From Gracilibacillus orientalis (lineage in GTDB: Bacteria; Bacillota; Bacilli; Bacillales; Amphibacillaceae), in the NCBI RefSeq assembly GCF_900114645.1, contig NZ_FOTR01000018.1:1-64000 (forward strand): a DNA stretch of 64,000 nt, given 5' to 3'. The position numbers and the translations under genes were made by a program. The notes beneath the pieces were generated by a model. The model saw only the letters and a list, made by a program, of their open reading frames with translations. It was not told the origin of the DNA and made no database searches. This document shows, piece after piece, positions 223 to 60,430 of this stretch (positions are counted from its first letter, which is position 1; every line of letters starts with the position of its first letter).

Positions 223-890
223 CTTTCGATCTCCTCTAACTTTTTTAAAAAGGCATTCTCCGCTCGCAACCGTTCATTCTCTTTTTCCATCCGACGTATC
301 TCTAACTTCATTTTTTCTTCCGGTGATAATTCTTCCTCTGTTTTAGAACGACCACGTCGGTCTTTTAACGCATCCCATCCACCAGCTTCATATTTTCGCA
401 CCCATTGATAGACTTGTTGGTAAGATACTTGATTGGCTACCGCCGTTTTATGATAATCCTTATGATTGGCTAAAGCGTCTTGTACAATCTCAATACGTTT
501 CTGCCACGTGGTTTTTCTCCCTTTGGTCATAGAGCGACTCATTCCTTCCGGTTGTCCTTTTATTTCTCTATGACCATTATAATCTTTCATCCATTTTCTT
601 AAAACAGATGTGCTGGAAATCCCATGCTTTTCTATGACATCTCTTTGTGAATAGTTACCTGAAAGGTAATCTGATATGGCAACTAATTTCATTTCTTTTG
701 TGTAGGTTTTATTGTGGGAAGTTCCCTTTAAACCTTCCACACCGTATTTTTCCACCATTTTCATCCAATGCACAAGGGTGGTATTATGTACACCGTACTT
801 TCGCTGGATCTCACTTAAGCTATATCCCAGATTTTCATAGGCATCCAATACTGTCCGTTTAAATTCAGCAGTATGACCTTTTCTGGACAT
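210..890 (-). CDS. IS3-family transposase OrfA (helix-turn-helix protein)
   Basis: The product is about 226 residues. Two helix-turn-helix units cover roughly residues 1-55 and 60-110, and a third HTH-like part lies before a C-terminal leucine-zipper-like helix rich in K, E, R and L (about 185-225). This is the layout of long IS3/IS150-group OrfA proteins, which bind the terminal inverted repeats. The ATG at 890 is chosen because GGGGGAG lies 8 bases upstream; an in-frame TTG at 908 is less likely. The ORF is intact. The element's other end is outside the window, so completeness cannot be judged. Confidence 0.85.
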   Translation of the reverse strand: MSRKGHTAEFKRTVLDAYENLGYSLSEIQRKYGVHNTTLVHWMKMVEKYGVEGLKGTSHNKTYTKEMKLVAISDYLSGNYSQRDVIEKHGISSTSVLRKWMKDYNGHREIKGQPEGMSRSMTKGRKTTWQKRIEIVQDALANHKDYHKTAVANQVSYQQVYQWVRKYEAGGWDALKDRRGRSKTEEELSPEEKMKLEIRRMEKENERLRAENAFLKKLEEIERGRS

Positions 891-906
891 AAAAATAACT
901 CCCCCC

Positions 907-941
907 AAGTAGCAGATTTTTATTTTTTAATCTGTCTACTT
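907..941 (-). repeat. Hairpin in the IS leader, next to the OrfA ribosome site
   Basis: AAGTAGCAGATT (907-918) pairs with AATCTG(T)CTACTT (929-941), a 12-bp stem with a single bulge. It lies directly upstream of the OrfA Shine-Dalgarno. Hairpins here can limit translation from read-through transcripts in IS elements; that role is inferred. Confidence 0.5.
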
Positions 942-1227
942 AGAAGGGAGCTTATCAATCTAATTAAAATGCTTGATTTCATGCGCTTTTTTTATGATTT
1001 AAACGAAGTGATTTTTAACTTATGTCCAGGACTCCCAAAAACGATGAAGTAGTTCACCATTTACCCAATGTACTAATAATAGTTAAATCCTTGGTTCGAA
1101 TAAGTTAGTTTAAACAATTGCAAAAAAGTATTATTGTTGGAAAGGTTGATGAGTGCTATGATTTTTATCAAAACTATAAGGATTGAGGTGATTTATCTAG
1201 AAACGATAAAAAATGCTAACAACAAAT

Positions 1228-1297: not shown

Positions 1298-4200
1298 ATG
1301 GGTAATTATGAGAAGCGTTTAGAAAAGGAAGTTCACTCACAAATTTTTAATTTTAACTATAGTTGGCAGTTTATACTTGCAGATAAATTTCCACTTAATG
1401 AGGCATTAGATGCATGGCAAGATGATAAAGGTAGATATTTTTATGAAAAAGATTATGAGGAAAGCGGTTGGGAGACTGTAGGGGTTCCACATACTTATAA
1501 TGATAAAGATTTATTTGTGTCAAGAATTGAAGATGCAGGAAGTGGACAAAAAAGAACATTTTCTTTTTATAGAAAATGGTTCAGTCTTCCTTCTGAGCAT
1601 AAAGGAAAGAACGTCTTGATAGAGTTTGAAGGAATCCGACAAACCTGTTATCTATATGTGAATGGAACGATGGCAGGTTATTACGAGGCAGGTGTTGGCC
1701 CATTTGGATTTGATTTAACACCCTATATAGATTTTGAAGGAGACAACTTGATAGCAATTGCTACTGACAATACATCCTCCAGGAATTTAGATGCATTTGT
1801 TGCTGAAACACCAAATGTAGAAGGTGCAATACCCGGTGGATTCTTATCATCTCAAAACCCAGACAATATGGATGAAAGCATCCGAGGTGTAGGATATTTT
1901 TGGAATGCGAATGATTTTAATCCCAGTATAGGTGGTCTTTCAAAGAATATACGGTTACACATTAAACCCAAGTTACATATAACACTCCCGATTTACAGTA
2001 ATCTTCAAACAAAAGGAGTATATATATACGGGTCAGATTATGAGATTAAAAATAAAAAAGCTACTATACATGTAGATGTAGAGTTAAGAAATGAGAGTGA
2101 CTCGGACAAAAATGTAACATTAGAATCTATCATTATCGATCATAAAGGTCATGAAGTAGCACGGATGTCTTCTGGCGAAATACAAATACCTAAAGCAAGA
2201 GAATTACCTAATTTGCCACAACAATCAATAACGCCAAAAGATGCCTATTCCAAAGAAGGTAACCAGTATATACCATTATTCGAAGAAGACGTCGAGCCTA
2301 CAAAAACTGATTCATTAGAGGTAACTTTAGTGAAATCTAATGCTCTAGGTTCCAATCTACGGTTTTGGTCACCAGATGATCCATATTTATACACGGTTCG
2401 AACTTATTTAATATACAATGGAGAAGTTTTAGATCAAGTGACAAATGTTACAGGATTTAGGAAGGTTTCTTATGATTTCGAGAGTGGGTTGAAAATAAAC
2501 GACTCTCGTGTATGGTTGACAGGATATGCTCAACGCGCAGCTAATGAATGGGCAGTTATTGGAACGGCACCAGATTGGCTGAAAGATATCGATGCCCAAT
2601 TAATTCGTGAAAGTAATGCAAATCATATCCGTTTTATGCATGTGGCAGGTAGTCCAGCAGATATTCGATCGTTTGATCGTTCTGGCGTTGTTTGTACACA
2701 ACCTGCTGGAGATAAAGAAAAAGAGAACTTTGGCAGACAATGGGATCAACGTGTCGAATTAATGAGAGATGTCATCATTTATTTTAGGAATAATCCTTCG
2801 ATATTGTTTTGGGAAGCGGGCAATAATTCCATAAATAAAGAACATATGCGTGAAATGCGTTTATTAAAGGAGAAGCTTGATCCTACTGGTGGCAGATATA
2901 TGGGGTGCCGTACATTAAATACAGAAGAAGTATTAAATGAAGCGGAATATGTAGGTACCATGTTAAACCGTCATGCTGGGCGTTATCAATCTGAGAAAAT
3001 GCCAGTTACAGAGACTGAATATTTACGTGAGGAAGCCCCTAGACGTGTCTGGGATGATTTTTCACCCCCTGATTTTGATTATGATAATTTATGGTTAGGT
3101 CAAGGTGGCAGGAAACAAATTGGTGGTGATTGTCATGATCTTACTTCTGAAGATTTAGCTCTATATGCAGCAAAAGGGTATGCTGAATTTTTTAATGATC
3201 GGATTGGTGGAGCATCTGGGAAAAATCTTTATTCAGCAGCAGCGGCATTATGTTGGACAGATTCAGCTCAACATGGAAGGCAAGCAGCTAGTGAAAACGC
3301 TAGAATGAGCGGCCGCGTAGATCCAGTTCGTATCAAAAAACAAAACTTTGATGTATTTCGTACCATGCAATCACCAGTACCAATGATAAAAATTCTTGGA
3401 CATTGGAACTATCCTTCTGAAAGTGATAGGAACTATCGTTATCCGGTTAAAGAATTTGACGGTACTTATTGGAGAAAAACGGGAGAATATAGCTACAGAA
3501 ATCCAAAAGATAAAACGGTATATGTTATTGGTAGTTATTCCATCGCAAAAATAAAACTTTTTATAAATGGAGAATTTGCAGCAGAATGTGATAATACAAT
3601 TGATACTTTTGTCTTTCCATTTCATCATATTGATATTACTCAATCTGGCTCAATTACAGCAAAAGCATATGATTATAATGGGAATCAAGTAACTACAGAT
3701 ACAATTGAAACGGTATCCCAACCTGCAAAATTAAAGCTTAAAGCACATGTTGGCGATCGAGGACTTTTAGCAGATGGAACAGATATAGCTTATGTTGATG
3801 TGGAGGTTTTAGATGTTAGTAATCATCGTCACCCACTAGCTGATGATCGGATAGATTTTACGATGGAAGGTGAAGGTTTTTTTCTAGGTGGTTACAATAG
3901 TGGGCGTTTCAATGGCTATGGAAAAGAAGATAGTGTGATTCATAAAAATTATGTTTTTGCAGAATGCGGAAAGAATCGAGTATTCATCCGTTCCACAAGA
4001 AATGCAGGAAAAATAATATTATCAGCAAAAGTAAGCGGACTACCTGAGGAACGTATTGAGATCCATAGTAAATCAATGGACACAGGTGCACTAACAGTTG
4101 ATTTTCCACAATATCTTGAACCATTATATGCTGAGCACCCACCTGAAAATAGTTTTGCATTCAAAGCTATACCACAAGCCGATGCAGCTAAATATACGGA

Positions 4201-7330: not shown

Positions 7331-7865
7331 AAGAAAGTATAAAATCCTTAGTATAACAGCGTTTTGTCTTATAGCAGCGAAATAAATAAAGAGTGTTTTG
7401 AAAGGTATAGAGTGCTGGGCACAGCTCCGGAAAAATGCTTCGCTTTCCGCGGGCCTGGCTTCAGCTAATTTTTTTAAATAAAATGAATTTTATTTAAAAA
7501 AATGGATCTTCAGCTCATGCTATTCCCGCAGGAGTCTTCGCATTTTTCCTGCGCTTTAAGATAGGCTCTACACCTATGGTGACAGCTAATATGTTGGCTT
7601 TTTATAGCGATAGAAAATAGGGTTCTACATGATGCAGTAAACGCAAAAATGATACTATATAATAAGTTGTAGAACATAACCATAGCGCAGGCCGACCGTT
7701 TCGACTCCTGGGGAAATAGCGTGATCTGAAGATCCACTTTGAAAAGTGTTTTTCTTTTCAAAGTTAGCTGAAGAGCATGCCCCCGGAAAGCGAAACGGTC
7801 AGCCGAAGCGGTTGCCGTAGCAGATGAAAACATTTCATCATTTCTAACTTGGTTAGAGTACATTA
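7331..7865. repeat. Composite structured intergenic repeat (copy A)
   Basis: This fills most of the 767-base gap between the PL26 gene and the regulator. Its ends are nearly identical to the shorter copy at 40216-40402. Inside are two hairpin units in opposite orientation: 7431-7547 (outer arms AAAAATGC/GCATTTTT, with a perfect 17-bp AT hairpin at 7468-7484/7487-7503) and 7694-7800 (outer arms GACCGTTTCG/CGAAACGGTC, inner stem 7736-7746/7754-7764). The segment between them is framed by CCTGCGCT/AGCGCAGG (7548-7555/7684-7691). Each unit carries the core CGCTTTCC...TTCAGC...TTCAGNTCA/TATTCCC.CAGGAGTC or its reverse complement. No gene is supported here. Confidence 0.85.
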
Positions 7866-26996: not shown

Positions 26997-27045
26997 AAAG
27001 GAGGGAGACCTTCTTTTTCTTTTGCGGATAATGTTGATAAGTGGT

Positions 27046-27145
27046 AGGAAACGCTACGGCAAGATACTGCGCTTTCCACGTCCTCGGTTGCCTCAGAAAA
27101 CAATGTACGTTCTGTTCCCGTAGGAGTTTAGGTATCTTGCCTACG
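27046..27145. repeat. Structured intergenic repeat, single unit (copy C)
   Basis: The outer stem is GGCAAGATAC (27058-27067) with GTATCTTGCC (27132-27141), a perfect 10-bp match. Inside is a diverged form of the core seen in copy A: GCGCTTTCC...CCTC near the left and GTTCCCGTAGGAGT near the right. The outer stem sequence is unrelated to those of copy A. The rest of the 550-base gap (26997-27546) holds the SulP promoter and no ORF. Confidence 0.7.
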
Positions 27146-27448
27146 CTAAGCATAGTGTTCTCATTATCGAAAGAAGGGAATTCATGGAATTATATTCTAT
27201 GGATTTCTTCTTACTTGATAAGAAATACATAATAAGCTGCGGAAAAAAGTGTACTACTGGGGAACTTACGTGATAAAGATTCACTTTACCCCTCTGATTA
27301 TAGTCTCATCTTATCGGTTATTTTTTCCAATTTGGAAAGGAGTACATAGAAAAATAAGTTTTATATTCGGTTTTGCGAAAAAAGAGAATAATAGAGCATG
27401 TACATGAAAATGAAAGAATGAGTACAGTGTTCGCGTTTACATCAAGTT

Positions 27449-30272: not shown

Positions 30273-30344
30273 TTCCTTGGAAAAGTACTGCTGTTCCTTG
30301 GAAAAATGAGTATTTCCAAGGAACAGCAGCACTTTTCCAAGGAA
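30273..30344. repeat. Large hairpin with repeated TTCCTTGGAA motifs
   Basis: The arms 30273-30304 and 30313-30344 are complementary over 32 bases with one mismatch, around an 8-base loop. TTCCTTGGAA occurs twice in the left arm, and its reverse complement occurs twice in the right arm and once more nearby (about 30355-30364). It lies in the gap before the chemoreceptor. An ORF reading through it is a by-product of the repeats. Confidence 0.8.
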
Positions 30345-40177: not shown

Positions 40178-40180
40178 CCA

Positions 40181-40210
40181 AGACACGGATTAACTCCGTG
40201 TCTTTTTTTT
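40181..40210 (+). terminator. Terminator of ddl
   Basis: AGACACGGA and TCCGTGTCT form a 9-bp stem with a 5-base loop, followed by eight T. Confidence 0.9.
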
Positions 40211-40215
40211 AATTA

Positions 40216-40402
40216 AAGAAAGTATAAAATCCTTGGTATAACAGCGTTTTGTCTTATAGAAGCGACATAAATAAAGAGTGTTTTGAAATGTATAGAGTGC
40301 TGGGCACAGCTCCGGAAAGCGAAACGGTCAGCCGAAGCGGTTGCCGTAGCAGATAAAAACATTTCATCATTTCTAACTTGGTTAGAGTAGATTATCCCGG
40401 TT
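40216..40402. repeat. Intergenic repeat, shortened copy B
   Basis: Nearly identical to both ends of copy A (7331-7433 and 7783-7865). The 356 bases that lie between two CCGGAAA direct repeats in copy A are absent here. Only one arm (CGAAACGGTC) of the second hairpin unit remains, so its partner arm is lost. Most likely a deletion product of a full element. An ORF crossing it on the minus strand is not a gene. Confidence 0.85.
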
Positions 40403-49340: not shown

Positions 49341-49757
49341 ATAGCGTTAGTCTCTCTTCAAGAGAAAACTAATCCCCCTTATTAGAATTTTTAGAAAGAA
49401 AATATAATTGTCCGGCTTCGTATTATTTTCTGATCCAATGAGAAAAATCACCACGAAAGGTAAATTTCAGGATTGCATTCATTTAATCATCAGAAAATCA
49501 CTACCAGCATAGGCAGAATACGTAGATTCCTGTGAAAAGGTAGTATTCATCCATACATTTTTCATTCATTCGCTGTTTTTTAGCTACTTAAATAGGATAA
49601 ACAGAGCAGAATGGTTGCTTTTTCTTAAACTTTTCCATAATTTATGGTACATCCTTGATATATATATGTCAAAAAATTAAGATAAATATGAATTATTGCA
49701 CAATATGGTATAGTAGAAGGGGTGAGAAGAAATAAGACAACAGGGAGATACATTAAT
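49341..49757 (+). promoter_or_regulatory. Gap with probable promoter of the AEC transporter
   Basis: TTGATA (49655-49660), a 17-base spacer and TAAGAT (49678-49683) form a possible SigA promoter about 75 bases before the AEC start. The remaining bases also hold the leader of lipM; no ORF or RNA gene is supported. Confidence 0.4.
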
Positions 49758-54045: not shown

Positions 54046-54065
54046 CTTGATTAAGGTTGCATTCT

Positions 54066-54169
54066 CTTATCTTTGGTAATGTACCATCTGGATTTAGCAC
54101 CATACAATGTTATTGCTGGTTGCTGAAGTGTCATCGGGCCAGTCCCTACACCTCTCTCGATAAGATATT
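54066..54169 (-). promoter_or_regulatory. SAM-I (S-box) riboswitch for metI-metC
   Basis: On the minus strand CTTATCGAGAG, AGGGACTGGCCCGATGA, CAGCAACC, GGTGCTAAATCC and the closing GATAAG appear in order, the conserved S-box. When SAM is bound, P1 forms and the terminator at 54014-54045 stops transcription. Confidence 0.96.
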
Positions 54170-54325: not shown

Positions 54326-54427
54326 ATCTTATCAAGAGAGAAGGAGGGGTCTGGCCCTGTGAATTCTCAGCAACAGGCTACCATAGCACTGTGCTACTTC
54401 CAGCAGGTTTCACTTGGCAGATAAGAG
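54326..54427 (+). promoter_or_regulatory. SAM-I (S-box) riboswitch for cysP-SUMT
   Basis: CTTATCAAGAGAG, TCTGGCCCTGTGAA, CAGCAAC, GTGCTACTTCCAGCAG and the closing GATAAG follow in S-box order. The P2/P3 loops differ from the other copy, so the two are not a recent duplication. Confidence 0.92.
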
Positions 54428-60289: not shown

Positions 60290-60430
60290 ACAAGAACTCT
60301 GCCAAGAGAGGTAAATCACCATAGAACTTGTCATGGATTTCATCTCACTTAATCAGAAAAACGATCTTGAGCTGTGGAAAAATGCGATGCTCTTGTGGGA
60401 ACAACTACAATAAGCATAAAACTGGAAGAA

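Follow-up and report, generated by a model that had tools for sequence, protein, structure and literature searches.

Three hairpin units lying between genes in Gracilibacillus orientalis have a common core, and their outer stems are unrelated to each other in sequence, yet each of these stems pairs within its own unit. The question raised by this locus is what such units are and why the pairing of their stems is kept while the letters change. In the present study, the stretch of 64,000 nucleotides that carries them (contig NZ_FOTR01000018.1, positions 1 to 64,000), called the window throughout, was compared with the rest of the genome, with other genomes of the order Bacillales and the class Bacilli, and with known mobile elements.

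Results

All six outer-stem words of the three units in the preliminary description were recovered at their positions (Table 1). Units 1 and 2 lie head-to-head within a 535-bp repeat (family A), of which four more copies were found with an identity of 87-96% over at least 490 bases. The stem that had been described as tying these two units (7548-7555/7684-7691) was confirmed, and it corresponds to the conserved boundary box of each unit. Unit 1 is made up of the boundary box GCTCCGG.., the core CTTTCC..GGAGTC and the boundary box CCTGCGCT, and the typical unit of the genus reads GCTNCGG, variable stem, [C/G]CTTTCC, stem, inner hairpin, stem, [A/T]GGAGT[C/G], variable stem and CCTNCGCT. The spacer separating the two units has the position at which some other genomes retain transposase remnants. 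Unit 3 sits within a longer repeat (about 27031-27273). Four short family A copies were also found, one of them in the window, and the junction of their two parts falls within a CCGGAAA repeat. The R1 covariance model used for scoring was built from 24 units of the same genome, including two of the three window units and a near copy of the third. In RNA folding, 0, 0 and 5 of 200 shuffles were as stable as units 1, 2 and 3, respectively; in DNA folding, these numbers were 0, 0 and 17 of 200 (z = -4.5, -5.3 and -1.5). Unit 3, a shortened copy, is therefore weak on its own.

Table 1. Coordinates of the repeat features in the window
Feature	Position	Strand	Remarks
Family A repeat, with two head-to-head hairpin units within	7331..7865	+	4 further copies; ends aligned
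Hairpin unit 1	7424..7555	+	R1 model 120.7 bits; RNA fold z -5.3
Outer stem of unit 1	7431-7438 / 7540-7547		AAAAATGC / GCATTTTT
Spacer between head-to-head units 1 and 2	7556..7683	.	No transposase remnant recognised
Hairpin unit 2, opposite strand	7684..7809	-	R1 model 128.7 bits; RNA fold z -6.4
Outer stem of unit 2	7694-7703 / 7791-7800		GACCGTTTCG / CGAAACGGTC
Hairpin unit 3, shortened copy	27053..27147	+	R1 model 53.6 bits; RNA fold z -2.1
Outer stem of unit 3	27058-27067 / 27132-27141		GGCAAGATAC / GTATCTTGCC
Terminator-like stem-loop with T-run	40180..40210	+	Immediately precedes the short family A copy
Short family A copy without hairpin pair	40216..40394	+	Same short form in L022, L023 and L024

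Several other structured sequences were noticed in the same genome. A loose motif search of the stretches examined returned 92 rows, at least one of which is false. Apparent decayed fragments of the hairpin unit are present in the window at 49515-49540 and 60366-60405 (GGCAGAATACGTAGATTCCTGTG.. and TGGAAAAATGCGATGCTCTTGTGGGAA..), and an extra insert, ACCCAAGGGCACAAGTGCGACATCTG..CAGTGTCTTCTATGCC, stands between the core and the inner stem in L044 (1729-1911), L053 (1555-1737) and L105 (about 1130-1210). The short inverted repeat at 30273-30343, with words such as CTGCTGTTCCTTGGAAAA, is distinct from the hairpin unit and has matches elsewhere in the stretches of this genome. Two SAM riboswitches were seen back to back on opposite strands, at 54064-54166 (-) and 54326-54427 (+), about 160 bp apart.

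The covariation of the stems between units, which had been proposed from the three window copies, exceeded what shuffled or slid controls gave in three sets of units, and structural covariation across units is well supported. In the set of 33 units (A4), hand-picked from matches in 21 genomes and aligned with MAFFT, the covariation score was 0.430 versus 0.129 after shuffling and at most 0.104 after sliding; 87.1% of the cells were paired, versus 68.2% in the shuffles, and double changes were seen in 24 of 30 pairs. Among 24 non-redundant units of the same genome, also aligned with MAFFT, 82.9% of the cells pair (shuffled 68.0%) with a score of 0.332 versus 0.136 after shuffling and 0.141 for the best slide; in this smallest set the further pair types, counted as one of five measures, came to 49 and did not exceed the shuffles (49.7). 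The score was 0.338 versus 0.118 for 118 units of named genera (Sediminibacillus, Alkalibacillus, Aquibacillus, Gracilibacillus and others), in an alignment fitted to the model. When arms were swapped among the 33 units, natural pairs had a mean of -15.6 kcal/mol and swapped pairs -6.5, none of 10,000 permutations was as stable, and 26 of the 33 left arms ranked their own partner first, with the mis-anchored left arm of L307 retained in the test. Both arms could be obtained for 231 of 268 aligned units, giving 132 distinct arm pairs; at least 9 pairs were formed in 85 of these 132, versus 5.6% of cross pairs. The exchange can also be seen inside one genome (G204), where two near copies differ, having GGAACTTG/CAAGTTCC and AAAACTTG/CAAGTTTT.

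Matching stems could also arise by replication slippage, in which one arm is copied from the other (quasi-palindrome correction) with no selection for structure. Double changes far outnumber one-sided changes, as such copying would have it, and the inner arms of L026 (1584-1710) and L058 (1516-1697) are palindromic by eye where those of their sister units are not. Correction, however, would erase mismatches, and the T-G pair, the [A/T] bulge and the CTTTCC/GGAGT core persist across the class; six core pairs, the T-G pair included, are identical in 33 of 33 units, a persistence that the search itself favoured because the model that retrieved nearly all units contains the core. As a general explanation of the stems, slippage is improbable. 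Selection for structure, which the preliminary description had read directly from the covariation, is still the best reading since the mismatches are conserved, but arm-to-arm copying also seems to occur in L026 and L058.

The mention of similar repeats in Bacillaceae in the preliminary description was borne out. A model match was obtained in 148 of 199 sampled genomes of the order (75 of 96 genera), with up to 17 candidates scored per genome, and, at the level of the class, in 75 of 299 genomes, of which 60 lie outside the order. The order and class samples overlap within the order, and as the genome sets overlap, some loci may be counted twice. In the open-access literature, no clear description of the repeat or its relatives was found among the matches listed, with the exception of Bhal-1 as a possible relative; when the core letters were used as a text query, the matches among those listed looked unrelated. 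A phage origin was considered and set aside, with one query giving no match in phage records and one exact pattern giving none in viral contigs. One Radiobacillus record labelled as a plasmid (NZ_CP088021.1) has the core chromosomal genes metG, purR and glmU and may therefore be chromosomal.

The alternative that had been named as refuting, decayed transposons with fixed terminal repeats, turned out to be largely true as well, in that the units are parts of mobile elements. Their terminal repeats vary, however: carriers of this one hairpin core were seen with at least four different ones. In Gracilibacillus, a carrier with AAACTGCG ends was seen with both ends, and its pattern gave 101 matches versus 10 with a reversed control; this family is short and multi-copy, with terminal inverted repeats and no transposase, in the manner of MITEs. 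The carrier in G098 has GGCTCTGTTAAAGTT ends, and several of its copies show, by eye, duplications of 8-9 bp. In G107, the same terminal repeat adjoins a fragment related to the IS1595-family transposase, the link being a tblastn annotation at 88% identity; as the carrier of the G098 unit thus has an IS1595-type terminal repeat, the module is not confined to one family. A Pfam search of the L260 fragment gave no match, PF12762 matched in none of four genomes (G098 and G107 included), and the intact IS1595 copy examined has no unit. Another IS1595-type fragment (L185; NF033547, below cut-off) lies between two units and was not counted as a transposase link, because the left unit seems to be part of a separate AAACTGTG element. 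The third carrier end, GAGGCTGGGACA(T/A)AA, recurs at full-length PF13751 copies in G204, G252 and S. aureus and, slightly altered, in G098. The fourth, GGGGCTGTCC in G352, is shared with the left end of a PF13751 copy in that genome. None of these four ends was seen in the window's family A, and a terminal inverted repeat was not recognised in its aligned ends. No transposase was linked to the AAACTGCG terminal repeat; 20 stretches were taken in the search for its autonomous partner, and the frames read in two of them (L089 and L093) were housekeeping genes.

These carriers also bear on the idea of a REP/BIME-like system in which the hairpins are moved by a Y1 (RAYT-type) transposase. BIMEs resemble the present repeats, being palindromic units in inverted pairs between genes, and this likeness recommends the idea. 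In this genome, however, no intact Y1 transposase was found; the single Y1 match covers 35 of 121 positions and has an internal stop. The G098 carriers, with their terminal inverted repeats and duplications, are DDE-transposon-like. A RAYT/REP origin is disfavoured by the lone broken match and is highly improbable.

The connection with IS1182 came from PF13751, for which 47 matches were listed in 20 chosen genomes and 30 were taken for inspection; 17 of these 30 loci had a unit match (E up to 1). Thirteen loci were partial or broken, and there the unit stood beside the remnant in nine and, in five of them (L286, L297, L300, L305 and L307), one unit stood on each side, head-to-head. Among these five, L297 has a weak second unit (E 0.45), and L307 has a PF13751 match that falls short of the curated cut-off; L288, with a frame of 413 aa and a unit 285 bp away, was left out of this count. 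In L286, three transposase pieces matching NF033551 at 3-59, 61-135 and 429-466 lie between a unit at 837-944 (+) and another at 1802-1954 (-); they are IS1182 by NCBIfam, and each is well under the whole-protein cut-off since each is a fragment. Among 16 full-length loci, a unit in the leader, between the left end and the transposase gene, was found only in the four from G252. The same arrangement is present in ISSau3, an IS1182-family element of S. aureus, with the unit at 1645-1742 ahead of the transposase at 1837-3483. In the full-length copies from G012, G098, G204 and G352, the element itself contains no unit. A PF13751 search of the G. orientalis genome gave no match, so no IS1182 mobiliser was seen there. 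In a further genome (G016), a complete copy of the IS1182 family, whose ends are GAGGCC.CTGAAAAA, occupies about 250-2190 of L284; it lies within a hairpin unit and has a 9-bp flanking repeat, CGACCGATC, on both sides; a unit can thus itself be a target.

Of 110 neighbours less than 400 bp apart (model and motif matches), 106 were head-to-head, and the other four (L037, L042, L046 and L048) all belong to three-unit elements. For transcripts coming from either flank, this means that the unit is met in the same orientation, a point in favour of the view that the unit acts as RNA, as a structured portion of an antisense or leader RNA by which the transposase is silenced and shielded from read-through from either side. 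The tsr24 family, moreover, scores 214 bits on the strand antisense to the transposase gene, where it spans the leader of ISSau3 together with its unit. The window copies, on the other hand, have no transposase gene to regulate and still keep their paired stems, and G-U makes up only 2.3-3.0% of standard pairs outside columns dominated by G-U, which seems low for RNA helices, with two tRNAs as comparator. This low content leans to DNA or arm copying, although two tRNAs are not a fair comparator. We regard an RNA role as possible but doubtful.

Terminator-like stems were concentrated at one end of the elements. Within 72 nt on the outer side, they were found at 28 of the 49 left-type ends of the main family, that with AAACTGCG ends, and at 11 of the 17 left ends of family A, one of which (L021) is the same place as the stem at 40180..40210, whereas 64 of 712 control windows (9%), taken from 34 repeat-free gaps of the same genome, were positive. 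At right-type ends none was found in 14, and a separate right-end scan gave 5 of 38; the copies of this genome often keep a terminator only on the left. Its elements thus often lie at terminators; insertion at stem-loops or terminators is reported for IS1272 and some members of the IS1182 family. By the same rule, the copy at 7331 has no terminator-like stem.

Flanking direct repeats above the control maximum (15; 300 draws) were detected in nine of 105 head-to-head pairs with enough flank, and the window pair is not among the nine. A whole stem-loop is duplicated over 31 bp (arm 12), 27 bp (arm 11) and 24 bp (arm 8) at L307, L300 and L297 (G480) and over 19 bp (arm 7) at L128 (G107); by eye, copies of a stem-loop of about 25 bp also flank L286 (G480). 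The 16-bp flanking repeat of L305 (G107) is part of a terminator, and the repeats of L179, L233 and L032 are not palindromic. For pairs of the G. orientalis genome, this test revealed no stem-loop duplication, and no offset stood out when target duplication was sought at its copies with an end pattern loose enough to let noise in.

With genes called by a simple open-reading-frame rule, unit-bearing gaps were codirectional in 37 cases, convergent in 24 and divergent in 6 (6/67 divergent), versus 116, 44 and 66 of gaps without units (66/226 divergent); in the G. orientalis genome, 38 unit gaps were codirectional, 9 convergent and 2 divergent, with 3 at contig edges. The intergenic sequence measures 345 bp in G107 with the element and 57 bp in a relative of the same genus (G220). 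The short sequence in relatives of G107 fits insertion, and these relatives are too diverged for a duplication to be read.

Discussion

Our findings indicate that the repeats are real, widespread and transposon-borne. Most probably, the units are hairpin modules carried by small mobile elements with a tendency to insert at transcription terminators. This explanation brings together the covariation of the stems, the head-to-head rule, the IS1182 remnants between units, the adjacency to terminators and the whole stem-loop copies that flank elements in two other genomes. Our confidence in it is lowered because the copy at 7331 lacks a terminator and few pairs have duplications. In the fullest arrangement seen, two head-to-head units, one inside each element end, surround a transposase gene that was always broken here. 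Most copies, among them those of the window, have lost the gene and retain a short spacer, so the elements are non-autonomous (MITE-like).

We propose that the hairpin persists on account of its shape, which a structure-reading transposase would recognise at the element ends, most likely in extruded or single-stranded DNA. Pairing would then be selected while the letters of the stem were free to drift, and a short, nearly invariant core would stay, with CTTTCC opposite [A/T]GGAGT, a bulge and a T-G mismatch. The units would accordingly serve as shape signals at the element ends, and it is presumably the transposase that reads them. Family A and the AAACTGCG elements may well descend from IS1182-type elements; for the window copies we can only infer this ancestry, since they have no transposase and no proven target duplication. 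More tentatively, a single structure-defined hairpin module, whose core of about 11 bases hardly varies and whose stems can be exchanged freely, might have been adopted by unrelated transposon lineages of Bacilli (IS1182-type, IS1595-type and AAACTGCG type), letting them land beside terminators harmlessly, by duplicating or abutting them, with their ends recognised by shape and not by sequence.

If this is so, a very common repeat of Bacillus-like genomes is tied to terminator-seeking transposons, and a handle independent of sequence is gained on how transposases may read the shape of DNA. The tolerance of so many insertions would follow from their landing at terminators, sometimes with duplication of the entire terminator. 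An origin is also suggested for tsr24, a catalogued sRNA of S. aureus.

What is new here is a variant of known things, namely MITEs and hairpin targeting of the IS1182 type. The tsr24 model (Rfam RF02577) covers the S. aureus version of the unit, while its match in the window is partial, with 28 bits against a gathering score of 50. Bhal-1 of Bacillus halodurans, a 74-bp structured intergenic family in a related genus (PMC2267715), could be compared by its description only, in the part of that report available. Like bacterial MITEs, including the pneumococcal BOX, RUP and SPRITE repeats, the present repeats are short, structured and present in many copies. According to the accessible part of that work, the pneumococcal repeats are almost absent from other streptococci (PMC3049150), whereas here one hairpin module is found across unrelated carrier ends and across a class, with covarying stems. 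The closest likeness is to the IS1182 family (IS1272 and ISSau3): stem-loops or terminators are targets in both, ISSau3 contains the unit, and remnants of the family lie between paired units in other genomes; the window copies differ in having no transposase and other ends. In the available portions of the reports on it, IS1272 (with TnSha1) picks hairpins, some of them terminators, with no sequence preference, and removes the hairpin (PMC5678879, PMC4923244). Five elements in our material (L307, L300, L297, L128 and L286) are instead flanked by two copies of the stem-loop. The model proposed for IS1272 has, in the text available, a side branch in which the whole stem-loop is duplicated (PMC5678879), and the copied stem-loops described here fit this duplicating branch.
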